Below, piece by piece: positions 7,234 to 52,000 of a stretch of 58,142 nucleotides of DNA. Position 1 is the first letter of the stretch. Every line of letters begins with the position of its first letter. Below the pieces are notes generated by a model, which made no database searches, was not told the DNA's origin, and was given only the letters and a program-made list of their open reading frames with translations. The translations under genes were made by a program, and so were the position numbers. The DNA comes from Pseudobdellovibrionaceae bacterium (GTDB lineage: Bacteria > Bdellovibrionota > Bdellovibrionia > Bdellovibrionales > Bdellovibrionaceae): NCBI GenBank assembly GCA_016785955.1, contig JAEUWH010000092.1:1-58142 (forward strand), given 5' to 3'.

Positions 7234-8178
7234 CTATTTATTGTTCATCAAGCAAAGTAATTCGAATACAACATCGACACCCGCTAAACCGGTTATATCC
7301 GAATGATCATAGGGTGGCGAAATTTCTACGATATCGGCGCCGACTAAATTTTTTACCTGCAAACCACGCAAGATTTGCTGAACCTCGTAACTGGTTAATC
7401 CCCCCGGCACGGGAGTCCCCGTTCCTGGAGCATAGGCCGGGTCCATACAATCAATATCGAAACTGATGTAAGTGGGTTCGTCGACAGAAAAGCTCGGCAG
7501 TGTTTTTACAAAATCTGAAATAGGAGATTTTTTAATATCATCCATCGTGCAAACGGTGATTTGATGTTTTTTTATAAAATCCAAATCTGTGTTGTCGGCC
7601 AATGGGCCGCGAATTCCAATCTGCACCATACGTTTTGGATTCACCAACCCTTCTTCAACCGCATGGCGAGCAAAAGCGCCATGATGAAATTCACAACCCC
7701 AAGCGGCAGGATACGTGTCCAAATGGGCATCGAAGTGAATAAAGCTTAATGGTTTTCCTATTTTTTTTCTTAACGCACGCAAAACGGGCAGTGTTGTCGA
7801 GTGATCCCCACCCACAGAAATAAATTTTTTGTTTTTGTGGGCCAATACGGAAACAAAACTTTCAATTTTCTCATAGGTCGCTTCGATAGAAATCGGCACC
7901 GTCGAGCAATCCCCAATATCTGCCACTTTCAAAGATTTAAATAAATTCATTCCTCGCGGCCAATGATAGGCACGTCCCAAGCTTGAGCACTCGCGAATAT
8001 GCGAGGGTGCAAATCGCGCCCCGGGACGATACGAAACGCCGCCGTCGAAGGGTACGCCAAAAATACCTACCTCATAGTCTTCATCCACCTGTACATGGGG
8101 AAGACGAAAAAAAGTTTTAATCGCGGAAAAACGCGGAAATTCACGGCCACTGAGTGGAAGATATTTATCTGCAGTCAT
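7234..8178 (-). CDS. speB: Agmatinase-type ureohydrolase
   Basis: Likely hydrolyses agmatine to putrescine and urea, following SpeA (22598). All six Mn ligands are present: GGDHS near residue 124, DAHLD near 150, and DIDCMD near 243. PGTGTPVPGGL after the last metal motif is typical of agmatinase and guanidinobutyrase. The length (314) fits. Substrate cannot be fixed from sequence; guanidinobutyrate or guanidinopropionate are alternatives. No Shine-Dalgarno is visible, but a strong promoter ends six bases before the ATG, so the mRNA is probably leaderless. Confidence 0.85.
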   Translation of the reverse strand: MTADKYLPLSGREFPRFSAIKTFFRLPHVQVDEDYEVGIFGVPFDGGVSYRPGARFAPSHIRECSSLGRAYHWPRGMNLFKSLKVADIGDCSTVPISIEATYEKIESFVSVLAHKNKKFISVGGDHSTTLPVLRALRKKIGKPLSFIHFDAHLDTYPAAWGCEFHHGAFARHAVEEGLVNPKRMVQIGIRGPLADNTDLDFIKKHQITVCTMDDIKKSPISDFVKTLPSFSVDEPTYISFDIDCMDPAYAPGTGTPVPGGLTSYEVQQILRGLQVKNLVGADIVEISPPYDHSDITGLAGVDVVFELLCLMNNK

Positions 8179-8184
8179 GCCACA

Positions 8185-8212
8185 ATTTTATGCTTAGTTT
8201 ATCTTAAGTCAA
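8185..8212 (-). promoter_or_regulatory. Sigma70 promoter for a leaderless ureohydrolase mRNA
   Basis: On the minus strand: TTGACT, a 16-nt spacer, TAAAAT, six bases, then ATG at 8178. Transcription would start at or next to the A of the start codon. Confidence 0.7.
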
Positions 8213-12231: not shown

Positions 12232-12846
12232 TCAGCTGGACGCAGTGTTTATGACGAGCTGCAAGAGCTGCTGAGCCACAGCTTCTGGTTCGTCGACTCG
12301 ACTTTTCTCTCGAGGCCATGCCGCTTTCGGCAGCATTGCGGTATTCATATAGCCCGGGCTAAACAAAGTCAGTGCAATTGGATACCCTTCCTTCTTCAAA
12401 GATTCCACTAAGCCTTTTAGAGCATGTTTAGACGCACAGTACATACCGGCATGCGGGTCAGGCTGGCTTTCCGCAATCGCTGATCCAATAAAAATCATTT
12501 GCCTGATTTTTGGATTATTTTTACCCAGATAGTTCAAAAGATAGGCAGGAAATCCAAAAGTGACATTCAGACTCCATAAATGATCTTTCCACTCAAACTT
12601 TGAAAAGGGGCCATAAGGACCACCGCCCGCAAAATAAAATACGCGATCAGCATCAAATTCCACGATTTTTTCAGCATAAAATTCAAATAGATCTGTTTTT
12701 GAAAAATCAAAACCATTTATGGAACGCGAAGCGATGAAAAGCTCGATCTCGGGATAGCAGCGCTTAACTAAACTGGAAAAGGATAAACCTAAACCACGTC
12801 CCGCTCCTAAAAGGATCCATTTTTCTTTTACAATCGTCTCGCTCAT
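12232..12846 (-). CDS. Short-chain dehydrogenase/reductase-like protein
   Basis: A 204-residue SDR-fold protein. WILLGAGRGLGLSF (residue 11) is the glycine-rich NAD(P) loop, and YCASKHALKGLV has the catalytic Tyr-x-x-x-Lys with Ser in FIGSAIAES before it. FYFAGGGPYGP takes the place of the usual NNAG. SPGYMNTAML follows the active site as in other SDRs. It is shorter than most (about 250). Substrate unknown. No Shine-Dalgarno; a promoter ends six bases before the ATG. Confidence 0.8.
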   Translation of the reverse strand: MSETIVKEKWILLGAGRGLGLSFSSLVKRCYPEIELFIASRSINGFDFSKTDLFEFYAEKIVEFDADRVFYFAGGGPYGPFSKFEWKDHLWSLNVTFGFPAYLLNYLGKNNPKIRQMIFIGSAIAESQPDPHAGMYCASKHALKGLVESLKKEGYPIALTLFSPGYMNTAMLPKAAWPREKSRVDEPEAVAQQLLQLVINTASS

Positions 12847-12852
12847 GAATTG

Positions 12853-12882
12853 AATCTAAGGTAATCTGTAGGCACATGACAA
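12853..12882 (-). promoter_or_regulatory. Promoter for a leaderless SDR mRNA
   Basis: On the minus strand: TTGTCA, an 18-nt spacer, TAGATT, six bases, then ATG at 12846. It overlaps the start of the divergent ferredoxin gene. Confidence 0.55.
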
Positions 12883-18877: not shown

Positions 18878-19932
18878 CCTACTCTTTGCTTACGTTTCTT
18901 GTTCGAAGCGCTAGCAGAAGTAACTGATTTTTTCTTCTTTTTCAATGCCGAAACAACTTTTGGCTTGTCCTTTTGCTTTTCCAGGGCCTCTTCCGAGCTT
19001 CTATTTTTATAAAAACACACTCGATTACGGCCATTTTCTTTAGCCTCGTATAAAGCATGATCAGCGCGGCGAACTAGCTCTTTAGGCGAGATATTTTCAT
19101 AAGGATCCGTAACCGCAAAACCAACCGAAATAGTCAGTTGAATCTCGTCGTCACCACTACGAAACGTCGTGCCTTCGACCGACTTTCGCAATCGTTCACA
19201 ATAAAACAATGCCCCATCGAAATTCACCTCGGTCAACACGATCAAAAACTCATCGCCTCCGTAACGCGCCGGAATGTCGATATTGCGGGTATTGGCCCGC
19301 ACGATTTTTCCCATTTCCGAGATCACAAAGCTTCCAAATAAATGATCATGCCCGTCATTCACATTTTTGAAATGATCCATATCAAACATGATCACGCACA
19401 CCTGGCGCCCGAAACGTCGGGCCCGTTGCAACTCGAAATCCAGTTTTTGATATAGCGAGCGCATATTCAGTAGGCCTGTCAAATCATCGGTGTCAGCCAA
19501 CTCTTTAAGTTTTTCATTGGCGTACATCAATTGCTCTTGAAGATCCCGAATACGCAGATGCGTACGGATGCGCGCCAAAAGCTCTAAAGGAACAAATGGT
19601 TTAACAATATAGTCATCTGCACCACTATCTAATCCTAAAATGATCGACTCTGTGGAAGATTCATCACTCAACAAAAGAATGGATGCAAATGGCCGCACCT
19701 CTCGCACCTTGGCAATGGCGCGAATTCGATGATCACGTTCTTTAAAATCGACCACGATGATCGCCGGCATCCAAGAATCAATAACTCGGATACCTTCCTC
19801 CAGTGTATCAACACCGACAGCATCGTAGCCTTCCCATTTCAATGGTTCCAATATGACGTCGATTCCTTGAGGATCATCGTCAATGACTAATATTTTTCTC
19901 GATTTAGCGGGACGTTCAACTTCCTGAGACAT
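18874..19932 (-). CDS. Response regulator with diguanylate cyclase (REC-GGDEF)
   Basis: Makes cyclic-di-GMP when its receiver is activated. REC domain, residues 13-126: acidic DDD at 18-20, phospho-acceptor Asp62 and Lys111. GGDEF domain, about 145-310: catalytic GGDEF at 225-229 is intact, and RNID at 216-219 is the inhibitory I-site (RxxD five residues before GGDEF). The C-terminus is very basic (KKKKK, KKRKQR). No Shine-Dalgarno; TAAAAT lies six bases before the ATG. It is coupled to the downstream CDF gene by an ATGA overlap. Confidence 0.92.
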   Translation of the reverse strand: MSQEVERPAKSRKILVIDDDPQGIDVILEPLKWEGYDAVGVDTLEEGIRVIDSWMPAIIVVDFKERDHRIRAIAKVREVRPFASILLLSDESSTESIILGLDSGADDYIVKPFVPLELLARIRTHLRIRDLQEQLMYANEKLKELADTDDLTGLLNMRSLYQKLDFELQRARRFGRQVCVIMFDMDHFKNVNDGHDHLFGSFVISEMGKIVRANTRNIDIPARYGGDEFLIVLTEVNFDGALFYCERLRKSVEGTTFRSGDDEIQLTISVGFAVTDPYENISPKELVRRADHALYEAKENGRNRVCFYKNRSSEEALEKQKDKPKVVSALKKKKKSVTSASASNKKRKQRVG

Positions 19933-19938
19933 ACTTAT

Positions 19939-19966
19939 ATTTTACGGCAGAAATAGACCACAACAA
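19939..19966 (-). promoter_or_regulatory. Promoter for a leaderless REC-GGDEF mRNA
   Basis: TAAAAT ends six bases before the ATG at 19932; the -35 side is weak (TTGTTG with a 16-nt spacer). Confidence 0.45.
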
Positions 19967-20022
19967 TAGATCCAGGAGTTCTTAAGTCGTGCAATCTGTG
20001 CCTCTGTCTGGTTCATTTTTCC

Positions 20023-20050
20023 TTGAAGATTTCTGTTAAATTAGTAAGAT
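20023..20050 (+). promoter_or_regulatory. Promoter for a leaderless leuS mRNA
   Basis: TTGAAG, 16-nt spacer, TAAGAT, then TCCCTC and ATG at 20057. There is no Shine-Dalgarno between the -10 box and the start. Confidence 0.6.
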
Positions 20051-20056
20051 TCCCTC

Positions 20057-30197: not shown

Positions 30198-30818
30198 TTA
30201 GGTAGACAAATCGGTATTTAGAAAATTTTCAAAGTCGTCTCTAGATTTGCCAATTGAATAGGGCAACAAAAGACGCACTAAATGAGTCTTTCCGCGCAGA
30301 ACTGATTCTTTTCCAGCAGACTTCTCTGTACTTTCAAAAAACTGCAAGAACGTTGTCGCCATCGCCAATAAAGATTCAAATACATAAAGTAGCTCTCTAT
30401 CATTTTTGATTTGAACCATTTTTCCGTCTTCGACCCAATGACGGTATAACACTTTCATAAGCTTCATCATTTTAGCCATATGAAGCTTCCACATTTTTCC
30501 CAAGGCAGGATCCTTACGGCGAAGTGCATACATCTCGCGGTGAAAAAAACGGTACTTCCAATAAACATCAAAATTTTCTTCTACAAACTGAACCGGAGAC
30601 ATGAGCGAAATATGCTTTGAACTCCAAATTTTATATGTCTCCTTACACATACGACGAAAAAGCTCCTGAATGATTTCTTCTTTGTTGTCATAGTGAAAAT
30701 ACAAATTTCCTGGGGAAATATTCATCGCTTTAGCAATATGGTTCGTCGTGATGGCGACGACTCCATTTTTGTTAAATAGTTCGACAGAAACATCTAAAAT
30801 TTTATCTTTGGTTTTCAT
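30198..30818 (-). CDS. TetR-family transcriptional regulator
   Basis: A 206-residue dimeric repressor-type protein. The DNA-binding helix-turn-helix is at residues 20-48: VVAITTNHIAKAMNISPGNLYFHYDNKEEI is typical of TetR. The C-terminal ligand domain is helical and has no clear match by eye. The target is not obvious; it is divergent from the transpeptidase gene at 31007. No Shine-Dalgarno is present; a promoter ends six bases before the ATG. Confidence 0.9.
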   Translation of the reverse strand: MKTKDKILDVSVELFNKNGVVAITTNHIAKAMNISPGNLYFHYDNKEEIIQELFRRMCKETYKIWSSKHISLMSPVQFVEENFDVYWKYRFFHREMYALRRKDPALGKMWKLHMAKMMKLMKVLYRHWVEDGKMVQIKNDRELLYVFESLLAMATTFLQFFESTEKSAGKESVLRGKTHLVRLLLPYSIGKSRDDFENFLNTDLST

Positions 30819-30824
30819 GGGACC

Positions 30825-30853
30825 CTTATAGGCTTTGGTCGATACTTTAGCAA
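30825..30853 (-). promoter_or_regulatory. Promoter for a leaderless tetR-type mRNA
   Basis: Minus strand: TTGCTA, 17-nt spacer, TATAAG, six bases (GGTCCC), then ATG at 30818. Confidence 0.65.
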
Positions 30854-33851: not shown

Positions 33852-35015
33852 ATGTCATTGATTCAAAACTATAAATCCATCCTTAAGAACCATTTTAAAA
33901 GTATTAACGATGCCATTTTGGATCCACTGGTGTCCGACAATCTTCTTTGCCCCAAACCGGTGCCGTTACCACAAACTCTTATCCCCGCGTTTCAACAAAC
34001 GATCGCGGCATTTTATTCGCTCCGTAAAAACCCTGAATATATAAAGAAATATCATAACGACTTGAACGAACTGGGCATTAAAGACCCAGGCAATAACTCG
34101 TTGTTTATGAGTTATGATTTTCACCTCACCGCCGACCATCAACCGAAATTGATTGAAATCAATACCAACGCCGCTTTTCTTACATTGGGTCAATATTTGT
34201 ATGAAGCTCATCAATTGCCCACGGGAATAAATTTTAAAAATGCGGATTTTAAAAATTTATTTCTAAAAGAACTTGAACTTCAAGGAAAATCACCGGCACA
34301 ACCACGCGTACTGATCCTGGATGAAAAACCTAACGAACAAAGATTATTTTTGGAATTTTTGATTGTCCAAGAATTGCTCCAGTCCTTTGGGTGGTCATGT
34401 GCCATTGATGACGTTGCAAACTATCCGCACCACAATGTGGACCTTGTTTACAATCGCTTCACGGACTTTTATTTTAAAACGCCAGTCGCACAGCCATTAC
34501 GAGAAGATTTCTTAAGTCGTCGCGTCTGTTTTACACCGAATCCGTTTGAATATTTTTTATTGGCAGATAAACAACGAATGATCGACTGGTGTGAAGAGGA
34601 TTTCTGGCGCGAGCTGAATACCCTGTCGCCGGCACAGAAAATCTGCATCCAGAACGTTTTGCCCAAGACAATCAGTTTCAAACCCGAATTGAAAGACGAG
34701 ATTTGGAGCCAGCGAAAACATTTATTCTTTAAACCAAAAAATTCCTTTGGCTCTAAACAGTCCTACAAAGGCGCCTCGATTTCTAAAAAAGTTTTCGATG
34801 ACGTTGCCAACGAAAATTTTTTAGCCCAGGAACTCGTGCCGCCATCGGAAGTCGCCATGGCCACCCCTGATGGTACCCAAAACTTTAAATTTGATTTACG
34901 CTGTTACGCTTACCAAGATCAATTGCAGCTGGTGATCGCACGGGTGTACCAAGGGCAAGTGACAAATTTAAAAACAAAATGGGGCGGGTTTGCCCCCGTC
35001 ATGTGGACAGAGTAA
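33852..35015 (+). CDS. ATP-grasp protein, probably circularly permuted
   Basis: A 387-residue protein whose ATP-grasp motifs come in an unusual order. KLIEINTNAAF (Glu102 and Asn104), normally the last metal motif, comes first. VDLVYNRFTDFYF (about 196-208) and NPFEYFLLADKQ follow, as in CP_ATPgrasp families. FFKPKNSFGSKQSYKGAS (292-309) looks like the nucleotide Lys and glycine loop, then FLAQELVPP, FDLRCYAY and VIARVYQGQVTN. Likely ligates an amine to a carboxylate; substrate unknown. Its stop overlaps the corA start as TAATG. TATAAG lies seven bases before the ATG and there is no Shine-Dalgarno. Confidence 0.65.
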   Translation: MSLIQNYKSILKNHFKSINDAILDPLVSDNLLCPKPVPLPQTLIPAFQQTIAAFYSLRKNPEYIKKYHNDLNELGIKDPGNNSLFMSYDFHLTADHQPKLIEINTNAAFLTLGQYLYEAHQLPTGINFKNADFKNLFLKELELQGKSPAQPRVLILDEKPNEQRLFLEFLIVQELLQSFGWSCAIDDVANYPHHNVDLVYNRFTDFYFKTPVAQPLREDFLSRRVCFTPNPFEYFLLADKQRMIDWCEEDFWRELNTLSPAQKICIQNVLPKTISFKPELKDEIWSQRKHLFFKPKNSFGSKQSYKGASISKKVFDDVANENFLAQELVPPSEVAMATPDGTQNFKFDLRCYAYQDQLQLVIARVYQGQVTNLKTKWGGFAPVMWTE

Positions 35016-35995: not shown

Positions 35996-36025
35996 TTGAT
36001 GTAGGCAAACATATCTGTGTAGATT
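35996..36025 (+). promoter_or_regulatory. Promoter for a leaderless phosphatase mRNA
   Basis: TTGATG, 18-nt spacer, TAGATT, AACATC, then ATG at 36032. No Shine-Dalgarno. Confidence 0.55.
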
Positions 36026-36031
36026 AACATC

Positions 36032-37348
36032 ATGTTAATGAGAAGACGGATCTTCTTAAAAAGTATAGCCAGTGCCGTGGCACTGACCTCGGTGGCTGCC
36101 CAAAAAGCGCCCAAACCAATTCCATTTAATCGGGATTTGTTTTCAATTCTGCTGGGACCGGCCTTTGATGGCCAAGCCGAACTTTCGATCGTCCACAGCC
36201 GAAGTGAACGGATACGCTATATTATTTGTGACGGCGAGCAAATTCTGACGGACGCTTCCTATGAAACCATCACCTACCCTGGCAATTCATTTAGAATCGA
36301 TAAATTTTTAGTCAAGAATCTACCGATCGATACCCCACTCACTCTGCGAGTCTATGGTGATGATATCCAAATTGACGAACGCACCTTTTCATCCATTTCC
36401 AGCCAACGAAACGAATATGCCATCGGACTGGCTTCCTGCATGCGCGCAGCTCAACATGATAAATCTATATGGGCCAGTCTTGAACAACAGAAAACCGATT
36501 TACTACTTTTTTTGGGTGACTGTGTCTATGTCGACTATAATTTGGAAGTGCCTCTTAATCCCAAAATATTGTGGGAAAAATTTGTAGAAACCCGCATGGT
36601 ACTTCACTTTTACCACTGGAAAAAGTTAGTACCGACCATAGCGATTTGGGACGATCATGATTTTGGCGGTGACAATTCGAATAGAACATTTCCCTTCGTC
36701 AAAGAAACTCAGACCAACTTTAAGAACTTCTTTGCACAGAACCTCAGTGAAGGATCATTCATTACCCCGGGCCCCGGAATCGCATGTCGATTTCAATTGG
36801 GAAATCAGCTTTTCTTGATGCTGGATGGGCGAAGTTTTCGGGATGCCCCCAAGTCCGGACAACTGTACTCGATGTTCGGCAAAGAACAGGAAGATTGGAT
36901 TTTTGATTCCATTAATAACTTCGACGGACTTGTTTGGCTCAACAATGGAACCCAATGGTTTAATCTAAAAGGCTACAGCGAGTCTTTCCGTAAACAGCAC
37001 ACCATCAACTTTAATATGTTCGTAGAAAAATTGAATCAAGCGAACAAGAATGTCATTTTCACGTCCGGCGATATTCATTTTTCTGAAATTTGCGAAACCC
37101 CCAAATTTTTAAAAAATCTATCGCTAGAAATAACATCCAGCTGTATGCACAGTTCAACATTTGTCGGCCTACCGGCAATGAACCGCAGCGAAAATCGCCG
37201 AGGAGCCACGTCGCAAATTAATTATATCGTCAGTCACACTCAACAACACCTTGAAGACGAAATCAAAATCGACAACAAATGCTATACGCGCAATCGACGG
37301 CTGCTGTTCACCACCCAAATGACCTACAACCTGAACAAAAAAAGATAG
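36032..37348 (+). CDS. Tat-exported PhoD-like phosphatase
   Basis: A 438-residue protein of the alkaline phosphatase D family (metallophosphatase fold). RRRIFLKSIASAVALTSVAA is a twin-arginine signal (RRxFLK). Metal-site segments: LLFLGDCVYVDY near 165, IAIWDDHDFGGDN near 207 and FTSGDIHFSE near 347; LDGRSFRDAP is also typical. It should hydrolyse phosphomono- or diesters outside the cytoplasm. It is followed 37 bases later by the FadL-like gene on the same strand. Confidence 0.85.
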   Translation: MLMRRRIFLKSIASAVALTSVAAQKAPKPIPFNRDLFSILLGPAFDGQAELSIVHSRSERIRYIICDGEQILTDASYETITYPGNSFRIDKFLVKNLPIDTPLTLRVYGDDIQIDERTFSSISSQRNEYAIGLASCMRAAQHDKSIWASLEQQKTDLLLFLGDCVYVDYNLEVPLNPKILWEKFVETRMVLHFYHWKKLVPTIAIWDDHDFGGDNSNRTFPFVKETQTNFKNFFAQNLSEGSFITPGPGIACRFQLGNQLFLMLDGRSFRDAPKSGQLYSMFGKEQEDWIFDSINNFDGLVWLNNGTQWFNLKGYSESFRKQHTINFNMFVEKLNQANKNVIFTSGDIHFSEICETPKFLKNLSLEITSSCMHSSTFVGLPAMNRSENRRGATSQINYIVSHTQQHLEDEIKIDNKCYTRNRRLLFTTQMTYNLNKKR

Positions 37349-38738: not shown

Positions 38739-38823
38739 GGACCTTCCGCCAGATGTTACATTTTTATCTCTAAAAAACATAAAAACGTCTTAAATTTGAT
38801 CACGCCGATCCGATAAATTCAAC

Positions 38824-40671
38824 ATGACCATAAAAATGAGCCTAAAGAAAACCCAAGTCGTCCCGTATGCTGAATTTGACACGATCGATGGATCTCACCC
38901 GTACAAAGATTTAGGCTCGGAGTTTTTTGTGGAGTATCCCGTTTTCAATTTAAAAAAAGGGAAAATCGCGTACTTCAATTTTGATCTTGCAAAAGATATG
39001 GGATTACTGGGCAAAGATCACAAACAGAAGTTAAATGCCCAACTCGAAAAGAAAATATTAGATACCTTCGCGATTCAAATTATCAACGAATACGATGTAT
39101 TGACTAAAAAACGTATCCCTAGTCATCTGATTAAACCGAATAAATACATGGCGACTCGTTATCTGCAATTGCAACACAAAAATAAAAAAGGAAAAACCTC
39201 AGGCGATGGCCGCAGTATTTGGAACGGACAATACAAAAACGGCAAAACAGTATGGGACGTTTCATCACGCGGCACGGGCGTCACATGCCTATCGCCCGGC
39301 AGTGCGGACAGTAACAAGCCACTTAAAACGGGAAATACCGACACCGGATATGGATGTGGTCAAGCCGAAATCGACGAACTTGTCAGTTGCGCAATCATGT
39401 CTGAAGTTGTTCACAAAATGGGAATATACACCGAACGCGTGCTTACGGTCATTGATCTAGGCAACGGCCTGGGCATTGGGGTTCGCGCGGCAGAAAGTCT
39501 TCTTCGCCCTGCTCATGCCTACTTGTTTCTAAAGCAAAATCGCTGGGAGCCTTTGAAAAAAGTGATCGACTATGCCGTCGCTATGAAAAAATACAGTCCT
39601 CGTGCTTTACTTTCCGCCAAACAAGACAAATACGATCTTTTTTTAAATGATTTCTGCGATCGTTTCGCGACGTTTGCCGCCCAACTTGAAGAACATTATC
39701 TTTTCGTTTGGCTGGATTGGGACGGCGATAATGTTTTAATGGAAGCCGGGATCATAGACTACGGCAGCGTCCGACACTTTGGCAGTTGCCACAATCAATA
39801 CCGCTATGACGACGTCGAAAGATTCTCGACAAATCTTCTAGAGCAAAAAGGCAAAGCAAAAGCCATTGTTATGACGATGATCCAGGCTATTGATTTTGTA
39901 AAAACAAGATCTAAAAAAAACTTAGACTCCTTCAGAAAACATCCTCAAATGGCTCGCTTCGAAAAGAAATTTAATGAAAAACGACTTTACTTTTTTGCGC
40001 AAAAAATCGGGATCAGCGACACAGAGTTTGCTCAAATTAATGCCAATTCTGAATTAAATCGTGCTCTTATTAAATTGTTCAAGGCGTGCCACTATTGGGA
40101 AAACTTGAAAACCCAATCAGCGTTTTCAAATGTTGCCGATGGCATTAATAAAAATCCACTTTGCAATATGAGAAATTTTTATCGCGAGTACCCGACGTTT
40201 AAGACGTATTCTAAAAATAGCAAGCTGACGATCGATGAATTTGTTTCGATGACCTGGACACAATCTTCACCAAAAAAAAGTACGAATTTATTCTACAAGA
40301 ACAGCGACCGATTTGAAGATCTTCTGACATGCTATGACCGCGTCGTTGCGAGCCTGTCGAGAACGATGGATTCAGATGCCTATTTAACCATGGCAAAAAA
40401 TGCCGGCCGCTGGAATCCTTCAAATTTTCTGACAGGTAACGCTTTGATCCACACCGTTGACCATATCTTGCAGCAATACGCGATCGACGCTCGTGAAGAC
40501 CTGGTTCAGCAAATCGTGGAAAAAATAGTAAGCTATGTCAGTGGCGAGGCCTCTTCGGTAAAAAGAAAATCAATGTACGATGTGAACTCAAATCAATCCA
40601 AAGAAAAAATCCATCAAAAATTGTGGGACCAAATACTGATGAATTTACACGAATATCGCGACGAGTTCTAG
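38824..40671 (+). CDS. Divergent SelO (YdiU)-like pseudokinase
   Basis: A 615-residue protein I align by eye with SelO, the pseudokinase that transfers AMP to protein Ser, Thr or Tyr. GDGRS (127-131) matches LGDGRA. VSSRGTG (146-152) matches LKGSG but has Arg149 in place of the ATP Lys. E185 fits the conserved Glu, and R221 the VxR segment. DWDGDNVLMEAGIIDYG (298-314) matches NTDNMSILGLTIDYG, with Asp302, Asn303 and Asp312 at the same 10-residue spacing as the catalytic and metal residues. So most of the site is kept, but overall similarity is low. GATAAA lies six bases before the ATG and there is no Shine-Dalgarno. Confidence 0.65.
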   Translation: MTIKMSLKKTQVVPYAEFDTIDGSHPYKDLGSEFFVEYPVFNLKKGKIAYFNFDLAKDMGLLGKDHKQKLNAQLEKKILDTFAIQIINEYDVLTKKRIPSHLIKPNKYMATRYLQLQHKNKKGKTSGDGRSIWNGQYKNGKTVWDVSSRGTGVTCLSPGSADSNKPLKTGNTDTGYGCGQAEIDELVSCAIMSEVVHKMGIYTERVLTVIDLGNGLGIGVRAAESLLRPAHAYLFLKQNRWEPLKKVIDYAVAMKKYSPRALLSAKQDKYDLFLNDFCDRFATFAAQLEEHYLFVWLDWDGDNVLMEAGIIDYGSVRHFGSCHNQYRYDDVERFSTNLLEQKGKAKAIVMTMIQAIDFVKTRSKKNLDSFRKHPQMARFEKKFNEKRLYFFAQKIGISDTEFAQINANSELNRALIKLFKACHYWENLKTQSAFSNVADGINKNPLCNMRNFYREYPTFKTYSKNSKLTIDEFVSMTWTQSSPKKSTNLFYKNSDRFEDLLTCYDRVVASLSRTMDSDAYLTMAKNAGRWNPSNFLTGNALIHTVDHILQQYAIDAREDLVQQIVEKIVSYVSGEASSVKRKSMYDVNSNQSKEKIHQKLWDQILMNLHEYRDEF

Positions 40672-51964: not shown

Positions 51965-51970
51965 TCGGGG

Positions 51971-52000
51971 ATTGTCTCACAAACGACCGCAAAGGCTCAA
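51971..52000 (-). promoter_or_regulatory. Promoter for a leaderless helicase mRNA
   Basis: Minus strand: TTGAGC, 18-nt spacer, GACAAT, CCCCGA, then ATG at 51964. Confidence 0.5.

Follow-up and report, generated by a model that had tools for sequence, protein, structure and literature searches.

Leaderless genes with TANNNT boxes are well described in Deinococcus-Thermus, Actinobacteria, and other bacteria (PMC3160421, PMC12340547, PMC3898074). In Deinococcus-Thermus, the box is placed a few bases before the open reading frame, with an optional −35 element and no Shine-Dalgarno (SD) sequence, an arrangement like the one described here (PMC12340547; PMC3160421). In that group, the class is predicted to cover ~30-46% of genes, and reporter assays have been done in D. 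radiodurans (PMC12340547; PMC3160421), whereas ours comes to ~3-6% by sequence prediction. Mycobacterium tuberculosis is similar in its TANNNT −10 boxes and in having the start codon at the transcription start, which was mapped in that organism and is predicted in ours; leaderless genes there make up 26% of the genes with a primary start, as determined by experimental mapping (PMC3898074). The M. tuberculosis leaderless set is depleted in growth genes (PMC3898074), whereas the predicted set in our genome includes housekeeping genes, among them leuS, pheS, rsmH (mraW), and ftsK.

The stretch of DNA analyzed here (the window; 58,142 nucleotides) is contig 104 of a Pseudobdellovibrionaceae genome of 4,337,415 bases in 124 contigs, with an estimated completeness of 99.9%. 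Judged by LeuS, its nearest relatives (88-90%) are Bdellovibrionaceae and Bdellovibrio assemblies. In 2011, Bdellovibrio was grouped with the delta-proteobacteria. A survey from that year, which used the same in silico signal, predicted leaderless genes with TA-like signals in 8 of 33 delta-proteobacterial genomes; Bdellovibrio goes unnamed in its main text (Zheng et al., PMC3160421). For B. bacteriovorus, passages from a promoter-mapping study give TTAAG-N16-CCGATA as the mapped attack-phase FliA consensus, attribute most mapped attack-phase promoters to FliA, and make no mention of leaderless mRNAs (PMC3627812). Among open-licence papers, start-mapping studies included, we found no report of leaderless genes in Bdellovibrio. 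Leaderless genes are a known way of starting genes; the predicted group in this Bdellovibrio relative would be a new addition.

TANNNT boxes at a spacing of six nucleotides

Spacing was counted over 1.5 Mb of the window's genome, in which 1,094 genes were called with a simple, purpose-written caller that uses a hexamer coding score. The start codons rest on this caller, which set at least two starts in the window wrongly (36032 and 38824). Genes were termed SD-less if they lacked an SD-like word of at least 4 bases and non-operon if no close same-strand gene lay upstream. The main test set comprised the 292 ATG genes that were both SD-less and non-operon, with TANNNT counts taken for each spacing upstream of the start codon. 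Estimates of the total fraction from a fixed-register mixture model proved unstable, and column-shuffled nulls returned larger values than the data; results are therefore given only as excess counts. A sequence search for the exact 16S 3' end, GGATCACCTCCTTT, found no match in the G000 assembly, from which the rRNA is thus probably missing or in which it differs.

TANNNT lies exactly 6 nt before the ATG in 38 of the 292 genes (binomial p ~1e-16), compared with a mean count of 7.2-7.4 at other distances (10 at distance 5 and 9 at distance 7) and a background of ~2.5% per position. Dinucleotide shuffles of the upstream regions (n = 300) gave 8.4 ± 3.0 with a maximum of 20. The earlier note on this DNA had proposed comparing −10-to-ATG distances with shuffled controls, and the six-base excess it anticipated was indeed found across the 1.5 Mb, although ~7-8 of the 38 hits are expected by chance. 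There was no 6-nt excess among SD-bearing non-operon genes (10 vs 9.2 expected) or operon genes (6 vs 5.9 expected), and the excess remained when counting was limited to ORFs of at least 250 aa (28 vs 5.1). By start codon, 6-nt boxes precede genes with a purine start (38/292 ATG and 3/26 GTG) but none of the 44 TTG genes. A slight excess was also seen at distances 8 and 9 in SD-less genes (14 and 15 vs 7.3). Scanning alternative in-frame ATGs turned up 15 further cases vs 10.9, a difference that is not significant (p = 0.14). For the window alone, 5 of 49 called genes carry the box against a 2.4% background (p = 0.006), a post hoc value for cases picked after looking.

In 13 of the 38 hits, the box is preceded by a TTG at a distance of 16-18 nt, compared with 26 of the 254 remaining SD-less genes (p = 3e-4). 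At off-register positions in the same hits, TTG was found in none at 10-12 nt and in 4 at 22-24 nt. The TGN extension occurs in 7 of 38 hits vs 16 of 254 other SD-less genes, and boxes at distances 8 and 9 have TTG at the −35 position in 7 of 14 and 5 of 15 cases, respectively.

Candidate promoters in the window and its relatives

According to the earlier note, eight genes had no SD sequence and a −10 box exactly six bases before the ATG. Strict TANNNT stands at that position for five of them (starts 8178, 12846, 19932, 20057, and 36032) and is absent at 30818, 38824, and 51964; both −35 examples that were quoted, TTGACT-TAAAAT at 8178 and TTGCTA-TATAAG at 30818, are present. Orthologs were compared in G001, G004, and G005, which share the genus by GTDB, have the same LeuS contigs, and show synteny with the window. 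Spacing-6 boxes keep both the TANNNT pattern and the 6-nt distance in 9 of 12 ortholog comparisons with these three relatives (4 sites), whereas control TANNNT words at other spacings are kept in 11 of 37 comparisons (13 sites; Fisher p = 0.008). Over the seven named genes that have orthologs, identity at columns −12, −11, and −7 is 86%, above most neighboring columns, and the −35 columns are likewise conserved. As a separate observation, the LeuS proteins of G002 and G003 match at 57-58% over part of their length, compared with 89-90% in the other three genus members, a divergence that suggests gene replacement.

The agmatinase-like gene (7234..8178, minus strand; NCBIfam agmatinase TIGR01230, E 5e-64) is predicted to be leaderless. 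Its putative promoter (8179..8212, minus) reads TTGACT, a 16-nt spacer, TAAAAT, 6 nt, and the ATG of 8178; orthologs keep TTGACT and carry TAGACT (G001) or TAAACT (G004 and G005) exactly 6 nt before the ATG. At 12846, TAGATT stands 6 nt before the ATG with TTG at the −35 position (12847..12882, minus), and no ortholog of this gene was found in the examined stretches of the genus relatives. The box of the response-regulator/GGDEF diguanylate cyclase gene at 19932 (19933..19966, minus) is TAAAAT at 6 nt, and TAAACT occupies the same distance in all three relatives. The candidate leuS promoter (20022..20056, plus; LeuS TIGR00396, E 8e-303) consists of TTGAAG, TAAGAT, 6 nt, and the ATG of 20057. 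Its orthologs keep TTGAAG or a near-identical word. The spacing of the downstream box is variable, with TAGTAT 6 nt from the ATG in G001 and G004 and 7 nt from it in G005. Spacing also varies at the PhoD-like phosphatase gene (PhoD, E 1e-10), where TAGATT lies 6 nt before the ATG of 36032 (36020..36031, plus) and orthologs carry TAGGAT at the same distance in G001 and TACGAT at 8 nt in G004 and G005.

The remaining named starts depart from the strict pattern. A TetR-family regulator gene (TetR_N match) is preceded by TTGCTA, a 17-nt spacer, TATAAG, 6 nt (GGTCCC), and the ATG of 30818 (30819..30853, minus), and the sequence TATAAGGGTCCC before this start is identical letter for letter in four genus members. 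The reported lack of an SD sequence is doubtful at this gene, because the stretch also reads TAAGGG, which is SD-like and 4 nt from the ATG; the putative −10 box overlaps this word and is ambiguous. Upstream of the PIF1/RecD-like helicase gene (51965..52000, minus) lie TTGAGC and a degenerate extended −10, TGA-GACAAT, 6 nt before the ATG of 51964; relatives show TGA-GATACG, GATACT, and GATACT at 6 nt and ATTGA at −35. The SelO-like gene at 38824 has GATAAA at 6 nt, although CCGATA at 8 nt is the better reading. The candidate FliA/sigma-28-like promoter would then be CTTAA-N16-CCGATA, ending 8 nt before the ATG (38791..38823, plus). CCTTAAATT and TCCGATG are kept at the same place upstream of the orthologs in the three relatives. 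The element resembles the B. bacteriovorus FliA consensus (PMC3627812); against TTAAG-N16-CCGATA, it reads CTTAA-N16-CCGATA in the window and has CCGATG in the relatives.

Three further starts that had been counted as close, with boxes at seven to nine nt (33852, 53794, and 56005), are weak in ortholog comparison. The gene of unknown function at 33852..35015 (plus) has TATAAG 7 nt before the ATG, and this box is not convincingly kept in relatives. The single ortholog of 53794 has no box; for 56005, the one ortholog is distant and has TATACT at 6 nt. Another candidate start, 33806 (minus; TATTGT at 6 nt), was dropped; relatives read TCTTTT or TCTTGT there. Elsewhere in the window, a stretch of ~30 nt (GTTATATTAGAAATGGCATAGTGGTTGCTCT) preceding an S41-peptidase gene (42993, minus) does not differ among four genus members and contains the mini-ORF ATG GCA TAG. 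At another locus, a GidB-domain gene (L213:5681-6610, minus) and pheS (L213:6622-7644, plus) are divergent, with 11 nt between the called ATGs and TATTTT at 6 nt on both sides in a near-palindrome. Since the domain begins at residue 106, the start called for the GidB-domain gene is doubtful.

Origin of the six-nucleotide signal

With the end of a −10 box 6 nt upstream of the ATG, the A of that codon falls at the usual start point of transcription. The leaderless prediction is matched by a 6-nt peak confined to genes that are SD-less and non-operon, by the −35 enrichment, and by conservation within the genus. We consider it highly probable that a promoter-proximal subset of genes is served by housekeeping-type promoters with 6 nt between the −10 box and the start codon, giving leaderless mRNAs. 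From this geometry, RNA polymerase would start at, or 1-2 bases from, the A of the ATG; the resulting mRNA would have no leader, and the ribosome would initiate on the 5'-terminal AUG without SD pairing. Initiation on leaderless mRNAs probably involves the intact 70S particle.

Chance TANNNT words in AT-rich upstream DNA, combined with the picking of favorable cases, could account for the loose selection in the earlier note, where only five of eight boxes were strict, and one or two matches in the window are expected at the background rate. This account is exceedingly improbable given the p value at the exact spacing, a shuffle maximum well below the observed count, the missing excess in SD and operon genes, and the conservation of the boxes; for the class as a whole, it is strongly disfavored. 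The A/T-rich upstream regions reported for SD-less genes in many bacteria (PMC3160421) would instead fit a translational motif, in which an unstructured A/T-rich stretch recruits the ribosome through the S1 protein and transcription starts farther upstream. However, the signal is a hexamer at a single exact distance, not general A/T richness, and its association with an upstream TTG and TGN, together with the conserved −35 columns, makes such a motif very unlikely. The boxes may also be true −10 elements that give very short leaders (1-5 nt) or several starts, so that the mRNAs are nearly leaderless. The slight excess at 8 and 9 nt, the TTG frequencies of those boxes, and the variation among relatives at 36032 (6 or 8 nt) and 20057 (6 or 7 nt) speak for short leaders, but the peak at 6 is by far the largest and places the A of the ATG at the usual start position; we regard this reading as possible, if rather unlikely.

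Part of the class may not be of the housekeeping type, as FliA/sigma-28 promoters with CCGATA 7-8 nt before the ATG could also yield leaderless mRNAs, with 38824 as an example. In four family genomes, 10 genes have CCGATA or TCGATA at a distance of 7-8 nt from the start codon, vs ~2 expected (p = 3.5e-5). The CTTAA...CCGAT pattern is kept in 38824 and its orthologs, and the prominence of FliA among mapped attack-phase promoters of B. bacteriovorus (PMC3627812) is in line with such a role. The numbers are small, though, and for most of the CCGATA/TCGATA genes inspection showed no clear TTAAG at the −35 position, which leaves a FliA contribution tentative and somewhat doubtful. These data suggest FliA-type leaderless genes as our newest lead, not as a result.

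Extent of the class and its significance

Over all non-operon ATG genes, the strict-box excess is 48 − 15.9 = 32 of the 1,094 genes called, or ~3%, and the excess corresponds to ~10% of SD-less non-operon ATG genes. Because the caller misplaced two starts in the window and weaker boxes went uncounted, a fair guess for the leaderless-type class is perhaps 3-6% of genes in all. SD-like words of at least 4 bases precede 51% of genes. Between neighbors on the same strand, distances of −4 (84 genes) and −1 (31 genes) occur most often, which bears out the ATGA and TAATG coupling described earlier for operons. SD initiation and operon coupling dominate. The suggestion that leaderless transcription is widespread holds insofar as the 6-nt peak is sharp and found only in SD-less non-operon genes, but the term overstates a class of ~3% of genes in a genome where SD words precede about half. 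Judged from promoter sequence, leaderless-type promoters are real in this genome, as a small share of its genes. Predicted members include leuS, the agmatinase gene, pheS, rsmH (MraW family), ubiE-like, pilM-like, and T2SSF-like genes, ftsK, and a LysR regulator.

Other family members also have the 6-nt peak, namely G010 (7 vs 0.9, 400 kb) and G007 (5 vs 0.9, 200 kb), while G006 (61% GC, 200 kb), with 1 hit only, is too sparse to judge. We also pooled loci from broader groups; because these are leuS neighborhoods, the genes within them are not entirely independent of one another. Bdellovibrionota loci gave 8 boxes at 6 nt vs 1.0, and no 6-nt peak was found in Firmicutes loci, where SD-less genes are few. 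In pooled Spirochaetes loci, we observed a 6-nt peak of 13 vs 0.8, or 13 of 56 SD-less non-operon ATG genes, stronger than in the window's genome.

If start mapping confirms the predicted promoters, a Gram-negative predator lineage would join those bacteria in which leaderless genes form a standing class, and this class would take in essential genes such as leuS and pheS. The finding is relevant to the choice of start codons in gene calling and to engineered expression in Bdellovibrio relatives. A broader scheme, in which two sigma regimes feed leaderless translation in the Bdellovibrionota, the housekeeping one at a group of growth genes (leuS, pheS, rsmH, and ftsK) and FliA at some attack-phase genes, strikes us as improbable; were it true, leaderless initiation would be tied to the predatory life-cycle switch.
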